Shown here one piece after another: positions 6,715-50,932 of a stretch of DNA of 64,000 bases (positions are counted from its first letter, which is position 1; each line of letters opens with the position of its first letter). This DNA comes from Cloacibacillus evryensis DSM 19522 (GTDB taxonomy: Bacteria; Synergistota; Synergistia; Synergistales; Synergistaceae), in the NCBI RefSeq assembly GCF_000585335.1, contig NZ_KK073872.1, forward strand, positions 2,657,283-2,721,282, given 5' to 3'. The translations under genes were made by a program, and so were the position numbers. The notes below the pieces were generated by a model, which saw nothing but the letters and a program-made list of their open reading frames with translations, was not told the origin of the DNA and searched no databases.

Positions 6715-7913
6715 CAGTCTTCTACTCCCATTACAAATCCCTTCAGATAGTCCGTCTCCGGGACTCCGAGGAGCGCCGGGTGGTCCTGAGGCTGGTGTAT
6801 CTCATGTACGATGCGGCAGACCGCGCCCGCGTCCCTCGCCGCGTCGTTCAGCGTGTCAAGCAGCATATCCCGCGTAAAGGCGTGGCTGCATGACAAAAAA
6901 AGAAGATGCCCTCCCGGTCCCAGCCGTCTGAAACCGCGCACGGCAAGCTCCTTATACCCGCGGCGCGCCGAATCAAGCTGCCCGCGCGCCGGCGAGAAGG
7001 GCGGCGGGTCCATTATCACGATGTCATACCGCGCGCGGTCGGCGTCGATCTCGCGCATTATATCGAAGGCGTTGCCGCAGCGGAAAGTCACCTTTTCCTC
7101 GGGCAGGCCGTTGATGGAGAGATTCTCCTTCGCACGGTCGAGCGCGGCCTGCGACTGATCTATCGCCGTGACCTCCGCCGCTCCCCTGCCGAGGGCGTGA
7201 AGGGTGAAATGTCCCTGATACGAAAAACAGTCGAGCACCTTCGCCCCCTCGTAGACAGGGTCGAGCAAAGCCGGAACATGACGGACGTCAAGATAGGCGC
7301 CGGTCTTCTGTCCGCCCGCGATATCGACGAGCTCATACGTGCCGCCGATCTTCACCTTGAGCGGACCCTCCGGCATTTCGCCGAGCAGCGGCTTGACCTC
7401 GCGCGGGATTCCCTCTTTTTCCAGATGCCTCGTGTCGTTGCGCAGGATGACGGCGGACAGTTTCTTTACCTTGCGGAAGACCTTAGCCACCTCGTCGGCG
7501 TGGCGGTACCATCCCATCACCGAAAGCTGCAGCGACAGGACGTCCCCGTACAGGTCGGCGGAAATGCCCGGAAGCCGGTCCCCCTCGCCGTGTACCCAGC
7601 GGAAGGATTCCTCGCCGGCGCACCAGCACTTGCGCACCGCGAGCGCGCGTTCGACGCGGCGGCGCAGCAGCTCCATCTGGTCCGGCTCATGGCCGCCAAA
7701 GGAGAGGACGCGGATGCAGAGCGCGCCCTCGCTCCAAAGCCCCCAGCCCAGCACCAATCCTTTTTTGTCGGCGAAGGGGATGATGTCGCCGGGGGCGCAG
7801 ACCGGGGCCTGGATCAGATTGCCTCTGAAGAGCCACGGATGGCGCTGTTTTACGCGCTCGGCACCGCCGTCGTTCAGAACGGCGCGGCGCAGTGATTTTT
7901 TCATTGACGTCAT
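6714..7913 (-). CDS. rlmI: Class I SAM-dependent rRNA methyltransferase, RlmI family
   Basis: Predicted 23S rRNA cytosine-C5 methyltransferase. It has an N-terminal PUA-type RNA-binding domain (about 10-80), a central linker domain and a C-terminal Rossmann methyltransferase domain with DCFSYQGHFTLHA as the SAM-binding loop, AIDQS as the acidic ribose-binding motif and MDPPPFSPAR as the PP-F catalytic motif. The 399-residue length fits RlmI/RlmK-like proteins. Start and stop overlap both neighbours by a few bases. The exact target nucleotide is inferred from the family only. Confidence 0.87.
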   Translation of the reverse strand: MTSMKKSLRRAVLNDGGAERVKQRHPWLFRGNLIQAPVCAPGDIIPFADKKGLVLGWGLWSEGALCIRVLSFGGHEPDQMELLRRRVERALAVRKCWCAGEESFRWVHGEGDRLPGISADLYGDVLSLQLSVMGWYRHADEVAKVFRKVKKLSAVILRNDTRHLEKEGIPREVKPLLGEMPEGPLKVKIGGTYELVDIAGGQKTGAYLDVRHVPALLDPVYEGAKVLDCFSYQGHFTLHALGRGAAEVTAIDQSQAALDRAKENLSINGLPEEKVTFRCGNAFDIMREIDADRARYDIVIMDPPPFSPARGQLDSARRGYKELAVRGFRRLGPGGHLLFLSCSHAFTRDMLLDTLNDAARDAGAVCRIVHEIHQPQDHPALLGVPETDYLKGFVMGVED

Positions 7914-9835: not shown

Positions 9836-10833
9836 TGAAGAACATACTTGTAACGGGCGGCGCCGGCTTCATCGGTTCGCATACCTGCGCGGCGCTGCTT
9901 GACGCCGGATATTCCGTCGTCATCGCCGACGACTTTTCCAACAGCAAACCGCAGACATTGGAGCGCATCGGCGAGATAACGGGGCGCGATTTCGTATTCT
10001 GCGAGGCCGACGTGACAGACAGGGCTGCGGTCGCGCGCATATTTGACGAAAACAAGATCGACGGCGTCATCCACTTCGCCGGCTTCAAAGCGGTAGGCGA
10101 GTCCGTGGAAAAGCCGCTGGAATATTACTACAACAACCTTGTGAGCACGATCGAACTGGCAAGGGCCTGCGTAACTCACGGGGTGAAGCATTTTGTCTTT
10201 TCATCCTCCGCCACGGTCTACGGCGACAACCAGGCGCCCTTCGTGGAGACGATGCCGCTTTTGCCGGCGACCAATCCCTACGGAGAGACAAAGGTGATAA
10301 GCGAAAAGATACTCTCGGACACAGCCAAAGCCAATCCGGGCTTCTCCGTGGCGCTGCTGCGCTACTTCAACCCCATCGGCGCGCACGAGAGCGGGCTCAT
10401 CGGCGAAGCGCCCAACGGCATCCCTAATAATTTGATGCCCTACATCACGAAGGTCGCCAAAGGCGAGCTGAAAGAGCTGCGGGTCTTCGGCAGCGACTAC
10501 GACACGCCGGACGGCACCGGCGTGCGCGATTATATCCACGTGATGGACCTCGCGGAGGGACACGCGGCGGCCCTGGAAAAGATGGGCGAGGGAGTGTCGG
10601 TCTACAACCTCGGCACCGGCAAAGGCACCTCGGTGCTGGAATTGGTCACGGCCTTCGAGCGGGTCAATGAAATAAAGATACCCTACCGCATAACGCCGCG
10701 CCGCGCCGGAGACATCGCCGTCTGCTACGCGGAGACGAAAAAAGCCGAACGGGAACTGGGCTGGAAAGCCCGCCGCACGGTAGAGGAAATGTGCCGGGAT
10801 GCGTGGCGGTTTGAGAAAGGACTAACAAGGTAA
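9835..10833 (+). CDS. galE: UDP-glucose 4-epimerase
   Basis: Interconverts UDP-glucose and UDP-galactose (or the N-acetyl forms), supplying nucleotide sugars for the neighbouring surface polysaccharide genes. TGGAGFIGSHT is the NAD-binding loop; SSSATVYG and YGETK give the Ser/Tyr/Lys catalytic set; RYFNPIGAHESG and PDGTGVRDYIHVMDLA are classic GalE motifs. At 332 residues it is full length. Its ATG overlaps the TAA of the flavodoxin gene, so it is translated by coupling. Confidence 0.95.
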   Translation: MKNILVTGGAGFIGSHTCAALLDAGYSVVIADDFSNSKPQTLERIGEITGRDFVFCEADVTDRAAVARIFDENKIDGVIHFAGFKAVGESVEKPLEYYYNNLVSTIELARACVTHGVKHFVFSSSATVYGDNQAPFVETMPLLPATNPYGETKVISEKILSDTAKANPGFSVALLRYFNPIGAHESGLIGEAPNGIPNNLMPYITKVAKGELKELRVFGSDYDTPDGTGVRDYIHVMDLAEGHAAALEKMGEGVSVYNLGTGKGTSVLELVTAFERVNEIKIPYRITPRRAGDIAVCYAETKKAERELGWKARRTVEEMCRDAWRFEKGLTR

Positions 10834-34956: not shown

Positions 34957-35043
34957 GCGCCCTTCCGTCGCTCCGGCCTCCGAGCCGGAGCCCAGTGGCG
35001 TTGATTTTACATGCGCTGGTGGGGCAAAAACATGGAGCCGCTT

Positions 35044-35140
35044 GGCCCCGGGTCAAGCCCGGGGCGACGGAGTACCAGTGCCGGCATGACAAGATAAATC
35101 ACAATTTACCGTTCACTTCCAATCGCGTAAATCGGCGTTT
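35044..35140 (+). repeat. Dispersed intergenic repeat, copy 2 (CCCGGG/TAAAT module)
   Basis: Second long copy of the repeat seen at 1500-1597, with most bases the same. It lies between rpsR and yybS, inside what is otherwise a conserved ribosomal-protein gene order. Confidence 0.75.
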
Positions 35141-35153
35141 AGAAGTGCGAGTT

Positions 35154-35229
35154 GCTAAATAACTTAGGGCTCTGGAACCGGAGCCGTATATTAATACGGC
35201 GAGGACGCCAGAGCCCTATGTTATGACGC
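35154..35229 (+). repeat. Hairpin element A (GCTAAATAA ... TTATGACGC)
   Basis: A 76-base structured element. Ends GCTAAATAA and TTATGACGC; constant core ACCGGAGCCGTAT-loop-ATACGGCGAGGAC; outer arms AGGGCTCTGG and CCAGAGCCCT pair perfectly. Copies B (48705-48781) and C (50697-50857) share ends and core but have different, still self-complementary arms. It is followed by ATAAACGCCGATTTA, which reaches the rpsR stop codon. Confidence 0.8.
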
Positions 35230-35252
35230 AAATCGCGCTTATAAACGCCGAT

Positions 35253-35492
35253 TTAATCGGAAGTAAAGGGCAGCAGCGCGATAAGCCTCGCGCGCTTGAT
35301 CGCGCGCGTCAGCTGACGCTGATGCTTCGCGCACGTACCGGTTACACGGCGGGGGATTATTTTGCTGCGTTCCGTTATATATTTCTTAAGCTTGTCGATT
35401 TCCTTGTAGTCTATATGTTCGACTTTATCTACACAGAAATGGCATACCTTCGGCCTGCGCTTGCGGCGCTTGCGGTTGAATGCGTTTTCCAT
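35253..35492 (-). CDS. rpsR: 30S ribosomal protein S18
   Basis: Small-subunit protein that pairs with S6 on the platform, 79 residues. Cys17 and Cys20 (VCHFC) with Cys54 and His57 (TGTCAKHQR) form a zinc-binding set, i.e. the Cys-containing form. ATG at 35492 has AGAGGTGG ahead; a TTG two codons upstream lies nearer to that site and is rejected. Its last codons and stop lie inside the TAAAT repeat module. Confidence 0.95.
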
Positions 35493-35512
35493 TGCCAATC
35501 CACCTCTTTCTA

Positions 35513-43269: not shown

Positions 43270-43347
43270 CTCCCTCTCCGAGGCGGCCTTTAAAGGCATA
43301 AATTAAAATCGCTGAATATCGACAAATTGCTTTTTGTGGATGCCCGC
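43270..43347 (+). repeat. CTCCCTCTCCGAG/GAATATCGAC dispersed repeat, copy 1
   Basis: Contains CTCCCTCTCCGAGG, CCTTTAAAGG and a 37-base stretch (43311-43347, beginning GCTGAATATCGAC and ending GGATGCCCGC) that is identical to 50545-50581. A TAAATCGCCGTTTA module and a degenerate hairpin follow at 43349-43405. The stretch 43087-43485 between secA and livF holds no gene. Confidence 0.75.
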
Positions 43348-48605: not shown

Positions 48606-48704
48606 TGAGATTCATTGTAAATATCAAACCTGATATATATACTTTTAATAAATACATCAGCAATTGCCATAAACATGGTAAATCGGCGTTTATACGCGCC
48701 GTCT

Positions 48705-48781
48705 GCGTCATAACTTGCCCTCTGAGTGTCCTCGCCGTATGACCAATACGGCTCCGGTACTCAGAGGGCAAGTTATTTAGC
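48705..48781 (-). repeat. Hairpin element B
   Basis: 77-base copy on the minus strand: ends GCTAAATAA and TTATGACGC, core ACCGGAGCCGTAT...ATACGGCGAGGAC, arms AACTTGCCCTCTGAGT and ACTCAGAGGGCAAGTT. Flanked on both sides by TAAATCGGCGTTTA-type modules (48679-48694 and 48794-48807). Confidence 0.8.
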
Positions 48782-48793
48782 ATCCGGCACGTC

Positions 48794-48840
48794 TAAACGC
48801 CGATTTACGCGATTGCGAGGAAAGATAAATAGCGATTTAT
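48794..48840 (-). repeat. TAAAT-module repeat beside hairpin element B
   Basis: On the minus strand GATAAATCG...CAATCGCGTAAATCGGCGTTTA, the same module as the second half of 35044-35140. Confidence 0.65.
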
Positions 48841-48842
48841 CT

Positions 48843-49062
48843 TTTAAAGCCTCCCTCTCCGAGGGAGGTGGGCCGGCGCGCGATTTTGCGCCGGGTCGGA
48901 AGGAGTGTTGCACTGTGCGGCGCATGTTTTCAGCGCCACGCAGTGCCCGCGGCGGAAGCCGCGGAAGATGCGGAAGATGGTAAGGCCAAGAGCAAAACAA
49001 AACCCAAGGTCAACCCTCCTCCAGTCTCGGCGGAAAAACACCGCCGAGCCAGCCCCCTCGGC
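48843..49062 (+). repeat. Paired CTCCCTCTCCGAGGGAG-type repeats, interrupted by the IS
   Basis: The left unit (CCTCCCTCTCCGAGGGAGG then a CCGGCGC/GCGCCGG stem and GGAAGGAGTG) faces an inverted unit (CCTCCAGTC, CTCGGCGG/CCGCCGAG stem, GCCCCCTCGG). The IS lies in the loop of that second unit, whose other half resumes at 50510. Between the units is a CACTG...CAGTG hairpin region. No gene supported. Confidence 0.65.
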
Positions 49063-49119
49063 TGAACAGAGTCCCGCAAACCGGACAACGCTATAAAAGC
49101 TCCCAAGGGTATCAAAAAT

Positions 49120-49990
49120 TTATTCAATAAAGAGACTTCGATATTGCATCGGAGCCTTTTTCAATTTTATCTGTATCCTGTCGTTATTATAATACCCTAT
49201 ATATTCGTCTATAGCATCTTTGGCCTCCTCGTAGTTCTCCCATTTTACTCGGTTGACGAGTTCTGATTTAATGTGACTAAAGAAGTTTCTGCACAGGCAT
49301 TATCCAAACAATTTCCTTTCCTTGACATCGAGACCTTGAGTCCGTATCTTTGTGTCAGGTTGAAATATGCATGGCTTGTATATTGAAACCCCTGGTCGCT
49401 GTGGAGGATTGGTCCATCAGCGACCACCTTATTATTATTTTCAAATGCTTTCTTCAATGTATCGGTTACTAACTTAATATTATTATTACGACTGATTTGA
49501 TATCCCTGTATGGAATTATCAAAGAGATCTTTTATCATGGAGAGGAATATATTACCCTTTTTGTTCGTATATATGTGATATCAGTAACCAGTTTCTGGTT
49601 TGGTCTGTCGGAACGAAATTCTCTGTTCAGGATATTCTCATAGCTGTGGATATTTTCTGACATCACTTTAAACTTTTTCTTTTTTCTTATTTCCGCTTGA
49701 AGTCCCGCTTTTTTCATAACACGCCTTACCCTCTTATTGTTTACATGAATGCCAATGAAGTTGTTGAGCCACAGAGTCATTCGCCTGTACCCATAAGTGT
49801 TTTTGTTGATATTCTGTCCCGTTCTTATTGCTTCTATGAGAGGACCGTCTTTATCTTCCATTCCACGCCGCTTTAGCCAACTGTAGTATGTCGAACGAGA
49901 TACGGACAAAAATCTACACATTACACAGACAGAATGTTTTGTTGAAAATTCAAAAATGATTCTGTATTTAATATTTCTTTCTATCACCAC
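49120..49990 (-). pseudogene. IS150-like OrfB transposase, two frameshifts
   Basis: DDE transposase of an IS3-family element in three frames. The first part (to 49535) has the HTH-21-like region and DDE Asp in VTDITYI; the second (49538-49245) has HSDQGFQYTS and NCLDNACAE; the third (to 49120) continues as FFSHIKSELV...QYRSLFIE. One base is missing in an A run near 49548 and another near 49270 just after GAA. Expression would start by -1 slippage on A7 in orfA. Confidence 0.85.
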
Positions 49991-50427
49991 CTTTGCAGCT
50001 CTAAGGCTTTTTTTAATACATCGACCTGCATTTCCAGCTCTTTAATCTTTTCTATGCTATTTGTAACTTCCAATTTCTTATCTGGACAGTCTTGTTTTGA
50101 ACTAGAAATATCCCCTTGTTCGATAAATTCCTTACACCATCGTCTTAAAAGAGAGGGACTTGAAATGTTAAAAGATGAGGTAACATCTACCATAGTACGT
50201 CCCTCTTCTAAATGAGCCGAAACAGCTTCAAGTTTTACAGCCTTGCTGTAGGTTCTTTTTTTCCTTGTATCATCCAGTAAGTCCTTCTGTCCGCTCTTAT
50301 ATAAAGATATCCATGTTTTAACAGAATCATGACTAACACCAAGTTCTTCAGCAATCCGCCTTCGTGGAATTCCCTGTTTGTGCATCTCAATTGCTTTTAT
50401 TCTTTCTTCTGTTTTACGTTTACGCAT
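49984..50427 (-). CDS. IS150-like OrfA (transposase subunit)
   Basis: 147 residues, two helix-turn-helix units (RIAEELGVSHDSVKTWI; VTSSFNISSPSLLRRW) and a C-terminal leucine-zipper-like coil. TTAAAAAAAG near 50010 is a good -1 slippage site for making OrfAB. Intact although its partner is not. Confidence 0.85.
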   Translation of the reverse strand: MRKRKTEERIKAIEMHKQGIPRRRIAEELGVSHDSVKTWISLYKSGQKDLLDDTRKKRTYSKAVKLEAVSAHLEEGRTMVDVTSSFNISSPSLLRRWCKEFIEQGDISSSKQDCPDKKLEVTNSIEKIKELEMQVDVLKKALELQRW

Positions 50428-50509
50428 AGAAGAGCCCCCTTTATATGTATTTAGTTTTATTATAATCCAGGGGCTTTATTTGGCTGTCCGATTTTCGGGA
50501 TGCTGTTCA

Positions 50510-50581
50510 CCCGAGGGGGCCTTTAAGAGCAAACACTAAAAATAGCTGAATATCGACAAATTGCTTTTTGTGGATGCCCGC
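50510..50581 (+). repeat. CTCCCTCTCCGAG/GAATATCGAC dispersed repeat, copy 2
   Basis: Begins with the palindrome half CCGAGGGGGC, then CCTTTAA and the 37-base stretch identical to 43311-43347. A TAAATCCCCATTTA module follows at 50582-50624. Confidence 0.75.
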
Positions 50582-50696
50582 TAAATCCCCATTTATCTTC
50601 CCTCCCAATCGCAATTTATCTTTTACCCGCCCGAAGGAAATCAACAATAGCAGTTTTGCATAATAACAAAAAAATCGGCGCGAAGAAGTGCCGTAG

Positions 50697-50857
50697 GCTA
50701 AATAAGCCGGTCTCTGAGTACCGGAGCCGTATTCTCCATACGGCGATTGCAAGGCAATGTTCCCCGCCATTGGCGGGGAACTCTTTTCAAATTATCCACA
50801 TTGCCGCGGCATGCGGGTGCGTTTGCCGCAGGACACTCAGGGGCCGGCTTATGACGC
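50697..50857 (+). repeat. Hairpin element C with an 84-base insert
   Basis: Ends GCTAAATAA and TTATGACGC, core ACCGGAGCCGTAT...ATACGGCG and AGGAC, arms CCGG.CTCTGAGT and ACTCAG.G.CCGG. Removing 50746-50829 leaves exactly 77 bases, as in copy B. The insert holds a perfect GTTCCCCGCC/GGCGGGGAAC hairpin (50759-50781) followed by TCTTTTC. Confidence 0.75.
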
Positions 50858-50932
50858 ATACGGTGCTTATTCGCGCCGATTTTTATAAACGCCGATTTAC
50901 CCCCTGTAGATGCGGCCTGCCAGGGGTACTAT

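Follow-up and report, generated by a model that had tools for sequence, protein, structure and literature searches.

Three short hairpin-like repeats in a 64,000-nucleotide stretch of the Cloacibacillus evryensis DSM 19522 genome (hereafter, the window) share their ends and an asymmetric core, whereas their outer arms differ in sequence yet pair within each copy. What such an element is, whether its fold is selected and how it came to its present sites are the questions that this locus raises. The original prediction described these three copies, and the sequence bears out their number, shared ends and covarying arms; the intervals it gave cover only the inner part of a longer structure. The full element is a 128-bp hairpin bounded by TAAATCGGCGTTTA...TAAACGCCGATTTA, to which all three copies belong. 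The relevant features, in window coordinates, are as follows.

35093–35127, plus strand: left leader of copy 1, GATAAATCACAATTTACCGTTCACTTCCAATCGCG (flank listing of 49 copies)
35128–35255, plus strand: copy 1, subfamily A, arm GGGCTCTGG, loop ATTA (cmsearch 136.6 bits, full hairpin)
48679–48807, minus strand: copy 2, subfamily D, arm GCCCTCTGAGT, loop TGGTC (cmsearch 136.1 bits, full hairpin)
48808–48841, minus strand: left leader of copy 2 (sequence and flank listing)
50671–50883, plus strand: copy 3, subfamily E, arms GGTCTCTGAGT/ACTCAGGGGCC, loop TCTCC (cmsearch 96.5 bits including the insert)
50747–50829, plus strand: 83-bp insert TTGCAAGG...TTTGCCGC splitting the core of copy 3 between GGCGA and AGGAC (sequence)
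50884–50899, plus strand: extra terminal-repeat copy TATAAACGCCGATTTA after the subfamily E hairpin (sequence and flank listing)

Copy number and architecture of the element

A DNA search combined with a covariance model located about 55 elements in the 3.49-Mb genome, far from the few further copies that would have told against the original prediction, and the sister species holds 63. The exact core pattern occurs in this genome in 19 copies with a 4-nt loop and in 32 with a loop of 3–8 nt. As a core with up to three mismatches is expected by chance only 0.01 times per window, the three-copy observation is not due to chance.

The exact terminal repeat TAAATCGGCGTTTA is found at 92 sites in the 3,488,464-bp genome, nearly all of them ends of the element or its derivatives: they lie in pairs 114–115 bp apart or mark the single end of a derivative. 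The inverted ends are perfect over 14 bp in most copies, and the length of 128 bp falls within the 50–500-bp range of miniature inverted-repeat transposable elements (MITEs). The element contains no open reading frame of note and no transposase gene. Its feet are complementary, uniform within one genome and different between genera, and the core is better conserved than these terminal repeats. The arms diverge freely and remain complementary. The internal loops are conserved and purine-rich: one, CCGnAG/CGAGGA, lies near the tip, and a second, AAGGC or ACGAAG opposite AACGC or GAAG, about 20 bp below it. The tip itself is a short terminal stem, CCGTAT/ATACGG in subfamilies A–E and GCGCAC/GTGCG within the same loops in F and G, and the core pattern reads CCGGAGnCGTA-loop-TACGnCGAGGA. 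We distinguished at least seven arm subfamilies (A–G), to all of which the feet, loops and total length are common. Most copies are preceded on the left by a leader module of about 33 bp that opens with a degenerate terminal repeat (49 flanks listed).

The 83-bp insert of copy 3 recurs at one identical core site in 11 copies of subfamilies A, C, D and E, and carries a perfect terminator-like hairpin, GTTCCCCGCC..GGCGGGGAACTCTTTT. In this genome, the insert is confined to the element, with one partial exception at 308155. Chimeric copies join the arms of two subfamilies and all bear the insert (for example, at 3126550 on the minus strand and 2759583 on the plus strand), showing that recombination occurs between element copies. 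These chimeras are the exception to the predicted complementarity of the arms, which otherwise holds. The arms of copy 3 pair using two G·U wobbles, and subfamily E is flanked by A/T runs resembling a bidirectional terminator.

The neighbourhood of the element has repeats of its own. Palindromic mosaics lie left of the element at 1496–1597, 35039–35140, 43282–43347 and 50516–50581 of the window, and are built from modules (GAGGGAG, CCGGAG..CTCCGG, GGCATGACAAG and AATATCGACAAATTG) that occur in intergenic regions.

Covariation and the folded strand

To assess the fold, we used 14 distinct sequences from the seven subfamilies. RNAalifold returned a single hairpin of 53 pairs, in 30 of which both sides change. 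In this set, 96.6% of cells are paired, compared with 31–39% once the partner is slid, and the covariation score was reached by none of 500 shuffles. One subfamily F copy shows two full compensatory changes, from CCGAGGGCCTGCC/GGCAGGCCCTCGG to CAGAGGGCTTGCC/GGCAAGCCCTCTG.

Copies were paired with a score that treats G·U and A·C equally, and both were counted inside helices. On the strand bearing CCGnAG...CGAGGA, the G·U to A·C ratio is 53:6 in this genome and 111:7 in the sister species (sign tests, 2e-7 and 2e-12), and 57:9 in other genera of the family and 221:103 in other phyla (4e-6 and 3e-8). Because G·U is tolerated and A·C avoided, this is the strand whose pairing is kept. Palindrome repair purely at the DNA level would favour neither strand, and selection therefore acts on the CCGnAG...CGAGGA strand in its single-stranded form, whether RNA or DNA. 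The fold is thus real and selected, in agreement with the original prediction, to which the G·U excess adds the identity of the folded strand.

Placement behind stop codons

The element sits in one orientation, with its 3′ foot toward the stop codon of a gene. In this genome, a gene reading toward the element has its stop codon at the right foot in 35 cases, compared with 4 at the left foot; the corresponding counts are 39 and 4 in the sister species and, among the matches listed, 32 and 8 in other phyla, where the core ends 42–60 nt from the stop in most of the right-hand cases listed, that is, at the foot. Given this orientation, the folded strand is antisense to the abutting gene.

35253–35498, minus strand: rpsR-like gene for ribosomal protein S18 (Ribosomal_S18, E = 4e-26), whose stop codon is formed by the 3′ foot of copy 1

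Copy 1 ends in the three bases TTA, which complement the TAA stop codon of this gene, and the translation ends ...LLPFTSD* exactly at the junction. At the orthologous site in the sister species (L178), an element of another subfamily is present, and TSD* is once more the protein terminus. No long gene abuts copies 2 and 3 of the window, which in this respect are in the minority.

Amplification within species

The nearest relative of a copy lies in its own genome for 41 of 43 copies here and 54 of 58 in the sister species, and identical copies form groups of 6, 4, 4, 2, 2, 2 and 2 at unrelated sites. Orthologous sites may be empty: the element at 7756–7885 of locus L120 has no counterpart in L163 of the other species, nor does that at 10214–10341 of L170 in L123. 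In the intergenic region shared by L124 and L172, the copies of the two species are oppositely oriented, each against the stop of a different gene. The species-wise clustering, together with the empty sister sites, indicates that the family moves or is copied. Against this, gene conversion could likewise yield species-wise clustering, and an orthologous site can hold different subfamilies, as L178 and copy 1 do. No constant target-site duplication was seen in 49 flanks, and the sister genome, only about 84% identical, is too diverged for clean empty sites. We conclude that insertion, and probably gene conversion as well, multiplies the family.

Distribution across genomes and phyla

The covariance model found relatives in 23 of 53 Synergistaceae genomes, representing 10 of 22 genera. 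These keep a constant length of 126–130 nt, and their feet and arms are of wholly different sequence with the pairing intact; in several other genera, tandem elements are spaced by 0–1 bp. The strict core is rare in the phylum Synergistota beyond Synergistaceae.

We then scanned GTDB genomes with the core pattern (21 fixed bases), for which our own estimate of chance is about one match. At least 104 stretches carry the core. Among the matches listed, they occur in Myxococcales, Desulfobacterales, Syntrophus, Planctomycetota, Rokubacteria and Nitrospira, as well as Spirochaetia, Clostridia, Acidobacteria, Burkholderiales and others. Most of the listed cores are the centres of long hairpins, the second loop recurs in listed copies about 20 nt below the core, and in 64 of the 94 other-phylum cores listed the copy's own arms score above the 99th percentile of swapped arms by the Watson–Crick score alone. 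The few stretches inside coding sequence are probably chance matches. The core hairpin was also seen on two contigs classed as viral (L306, at 9135 and 13724, and L307, at 795). Searches of plasmid, phage and E. coli collections gave no match. Rfam 15 gave no match to the element at gathering score in the window and nothing on the element in 19 other-phylum loci; a weak match to mir-7918 (E = 0.06) is attributable to chance, and group II intron domain V, suggested by GAGCCGTAT, was rejected on its fold and by Rfam.

Search for a mobilizing enzyme

The original prediction had looked to a linked recombinase or transposase, and none turned up: the searches made yielded no mobilizing gene. The Y1/RAYT transposase (PF01797) is absent from this complete genome and from the copy-rich genomes G009, G010, G032, G041 and G044, and no reverse transcriptase domain (RVT_1) was detected in several copy-rich genomes, among them G044 (100% complete, 28 copies), G007, G009 and G032. 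None of the 53 genomes has an integron integrase above the TIGR02249 cut-off. On presence and absence over the 53 genomes, all three were rejected as mobilizers. No gene family recurs beside the other-phylum cores in a clustering of the neighbours of the matches listed, and no pair of TAAATCGGCGTTTA copies brackets a transposase among the 92 exact sites listed, of which single sites such as 3401650 were left unread.

An IS3-family insertion sequence at 49052–50520 of the window, which lies near elements in six loci, was also considered and rejected, as it targets a different palindrome, GAGGGAG, into which it inserts. Its ends are TGAACAGAGTCCCG and CGGGATGCTGTTCA and its transposase is split over several frames; at least 13 copies, about 98% identical, are present in this genome and the sister species, despite the roughly 84% identity of the genomes. 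Group II introns with reverse transcriptase are present in this genome at 451523–452144, 1290437–1292941, 1662474–1663094 and 2348959–2349579 (loci L119, L122, L123 and L128), within about 1.5 kb of hairpin elements and usually in the palindromic mosaic to the left of these; the introns may target those hairpins. A further IS-like element of about 2.1 kb (L111, 11906–12115 and 14217–14425; genome 37905–40440; ends CCGACTTCGGCACTTTT and AAAAGTGCCAAAGTCGGG) has a near-whole subfamily E hairpin with insert on both flanks, which amounts to an unusually long duplication.

Interpretation and alternatives

We consider it somewhat better than an even chance that the family is a non-autonomous, MITE-like mobile element that is passed on as a long hairpin, one strand of which is under selection for its fold. 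We infer an enzyme supplied in trans that would use the conserved internal loops to recognize this strand, whether as RNA or as single-stranded DNA, and would attach the 3′ end of the strand to DNA immediately after a stop codon; were such recognition under selection, this would explain why the arms covary while the loops stay fixed. Gene conversion among copies, together with insertion of the 83-bp module, would give rise to the mosaics. More tentatively, and with the balance tilted against it, the copies in the various phyla could form a single class of folded strands, either RNA or single-stranded DNA, that are mobile and are united by their internal loops and not by sequence, and which insert in one orientation directly behind stops by an enzyme not yet known and even supply the stop codon of an essential gene, as for ribosomal protein S18.

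The strand-specific tolerance of G·U, the loops conserved across phyla and the very tight placement behind stop codons would suit a functional RNA from which the host benefits, a structured antisense or 3′-end RNA that sits where genes end and governs termination or the stability of the mRNA. The terminator-like A/T runs of subfamily E fit such a role, as does the term 'predicted short RNA elements' used in the Geobacter genome paper for its family (PMC2700814, main text). However, the copy sites are partly unconserved between species within one genus, clustering of neighbour genes revealed no common function and the element is patchy within its own family. Moreover, the strand that preferentially folds runs antisense to the neighbouring gene at the foot, and is therefore not the 3′ UTR of that gene. 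We regard a functional RNA as unlikely, though worth keeping in mind.

The uniformity of the terminal repeats within a genome and their change between genera, the constant full length and the recombination evident in chimeras would be expected of an ordinary MITE, the ends of which are bound by a DDE transposase, as proposed for RUP and Correia elements, with palindrome correction (template switching) and gene conversion producing the covariation incidentally. This we judge less probable still: no insertion sequence with such ends was found at the terminal-repeat sites read, and terminal repeats less conserved than the core are the opposite of what a transposase-bound end would show. Palindrome correction, moreover, would give neither an 8:1 excess of G·U over A·C on one strand nor mismatched purine-rich loops preserved across phyla. 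An RNA copied in trans by a reverse transcriptase, primed from the sense strand of the gene behind its stop, would suit the orientation (the 3′ end of the element joined to the 3′ end of the gene) and the several copies that are variant or truncated at the left end alone (431225, 1946185 and 3297388, all minus strand), but is very improbable given the copy-rich genomes that lack RVT_1.

Relation to known repeats

The mobile hairpin that we favour resembles ERIC and other MITEs in architecture, and differs from MITE-like hairpin repeats in its cross-phylum core, free arms, definite folded strand and fixed position behind stops. Copy 1 has no blastn match at E ≤ 1 in 5,426 genomes of E. coli, a host of ERIC. 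Longer versions of ERIC with internal inserts were reportedly described by Wilson and Sharp in 2006. ERIC (or IRU) is a 127-bp imperfect palindrome of enterobacteria, intergenic, found also at gene 3′ ends and co-transcribed, with a reported range of Enterobacteriaceae and Vibrionaceae (PMC2229807, PMC10969869). REPs measure 20–40 bp and have an unpaired tetranucleotide at one end; the GTAG types accompany RAYT, the CGTC-tagged types have no dedicated transposase, and both, like the element, are palindromic intergenic repeats in several phyla (PMC3733652). The element, at 120–180 nt and with no Y1 protein in its genome, is unlike them, so that the 'REP-like' label of the original prediction applies only loosely, the single hairpin of about 128 nt standing against 20–40. 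Integron attC sites and VCRs share with the element a folded single-strand site, a similar length and variable complementary arms. The element differs from them in having no integrase above the cut-off, no cassette arrangement between copies and, as predicted, no fitting ends, RYYYAAC/GTTRRRY boxes being present in 0 of 49 copies.

The closest precedent is in the 2009 genome paper of Geobacter metallireducens, the main text of which describes 24 intergenic 'predicted short RNA elements' centred on the palindrome GRCGTAGCGCTGCTACGCC, and mentions similar sequences in G. sulfurreducens, G. uraniireducens and Desulfotalea (PMC2700814). This palindrome is the reverse complement of the core GGCGTAGCAGCGCTACGyC in Desulfosarcina and others, and it matches cores of Desulfobacterales and Deltaproteobacteria; this genome has the stem CCGTAT/ATACGG in the same loops. 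Like the element, the Geobacter family is intergenic and multicopy, but the main text presents it as a sequence family only, without covariation, folding strand, stop placement or spread across phyla (PMC2700814). As far as our literature search shows, the family has therefore been seen once before, with neither structure nor strand nor placement in that main text; the original prediction, which could name no match, agrees with the empty Rfam result and missed this one precedent.

If our reading is true, the divergent sequence and constant shape of the family explain why it has been overlooked almost entirely in Synergistota, Myxococcota, Desulfobacterota, Planctomycetota, Nitrospirota, Acidobacteriota, Spirochaetes, Clostridia and Burkholderiales. 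It would also point to an as yet undescribed enzyme that is directed to gene ends and recognizes a strand by its fold, and the covariance model offers a way to find copy-rich genomes in which to search for it.
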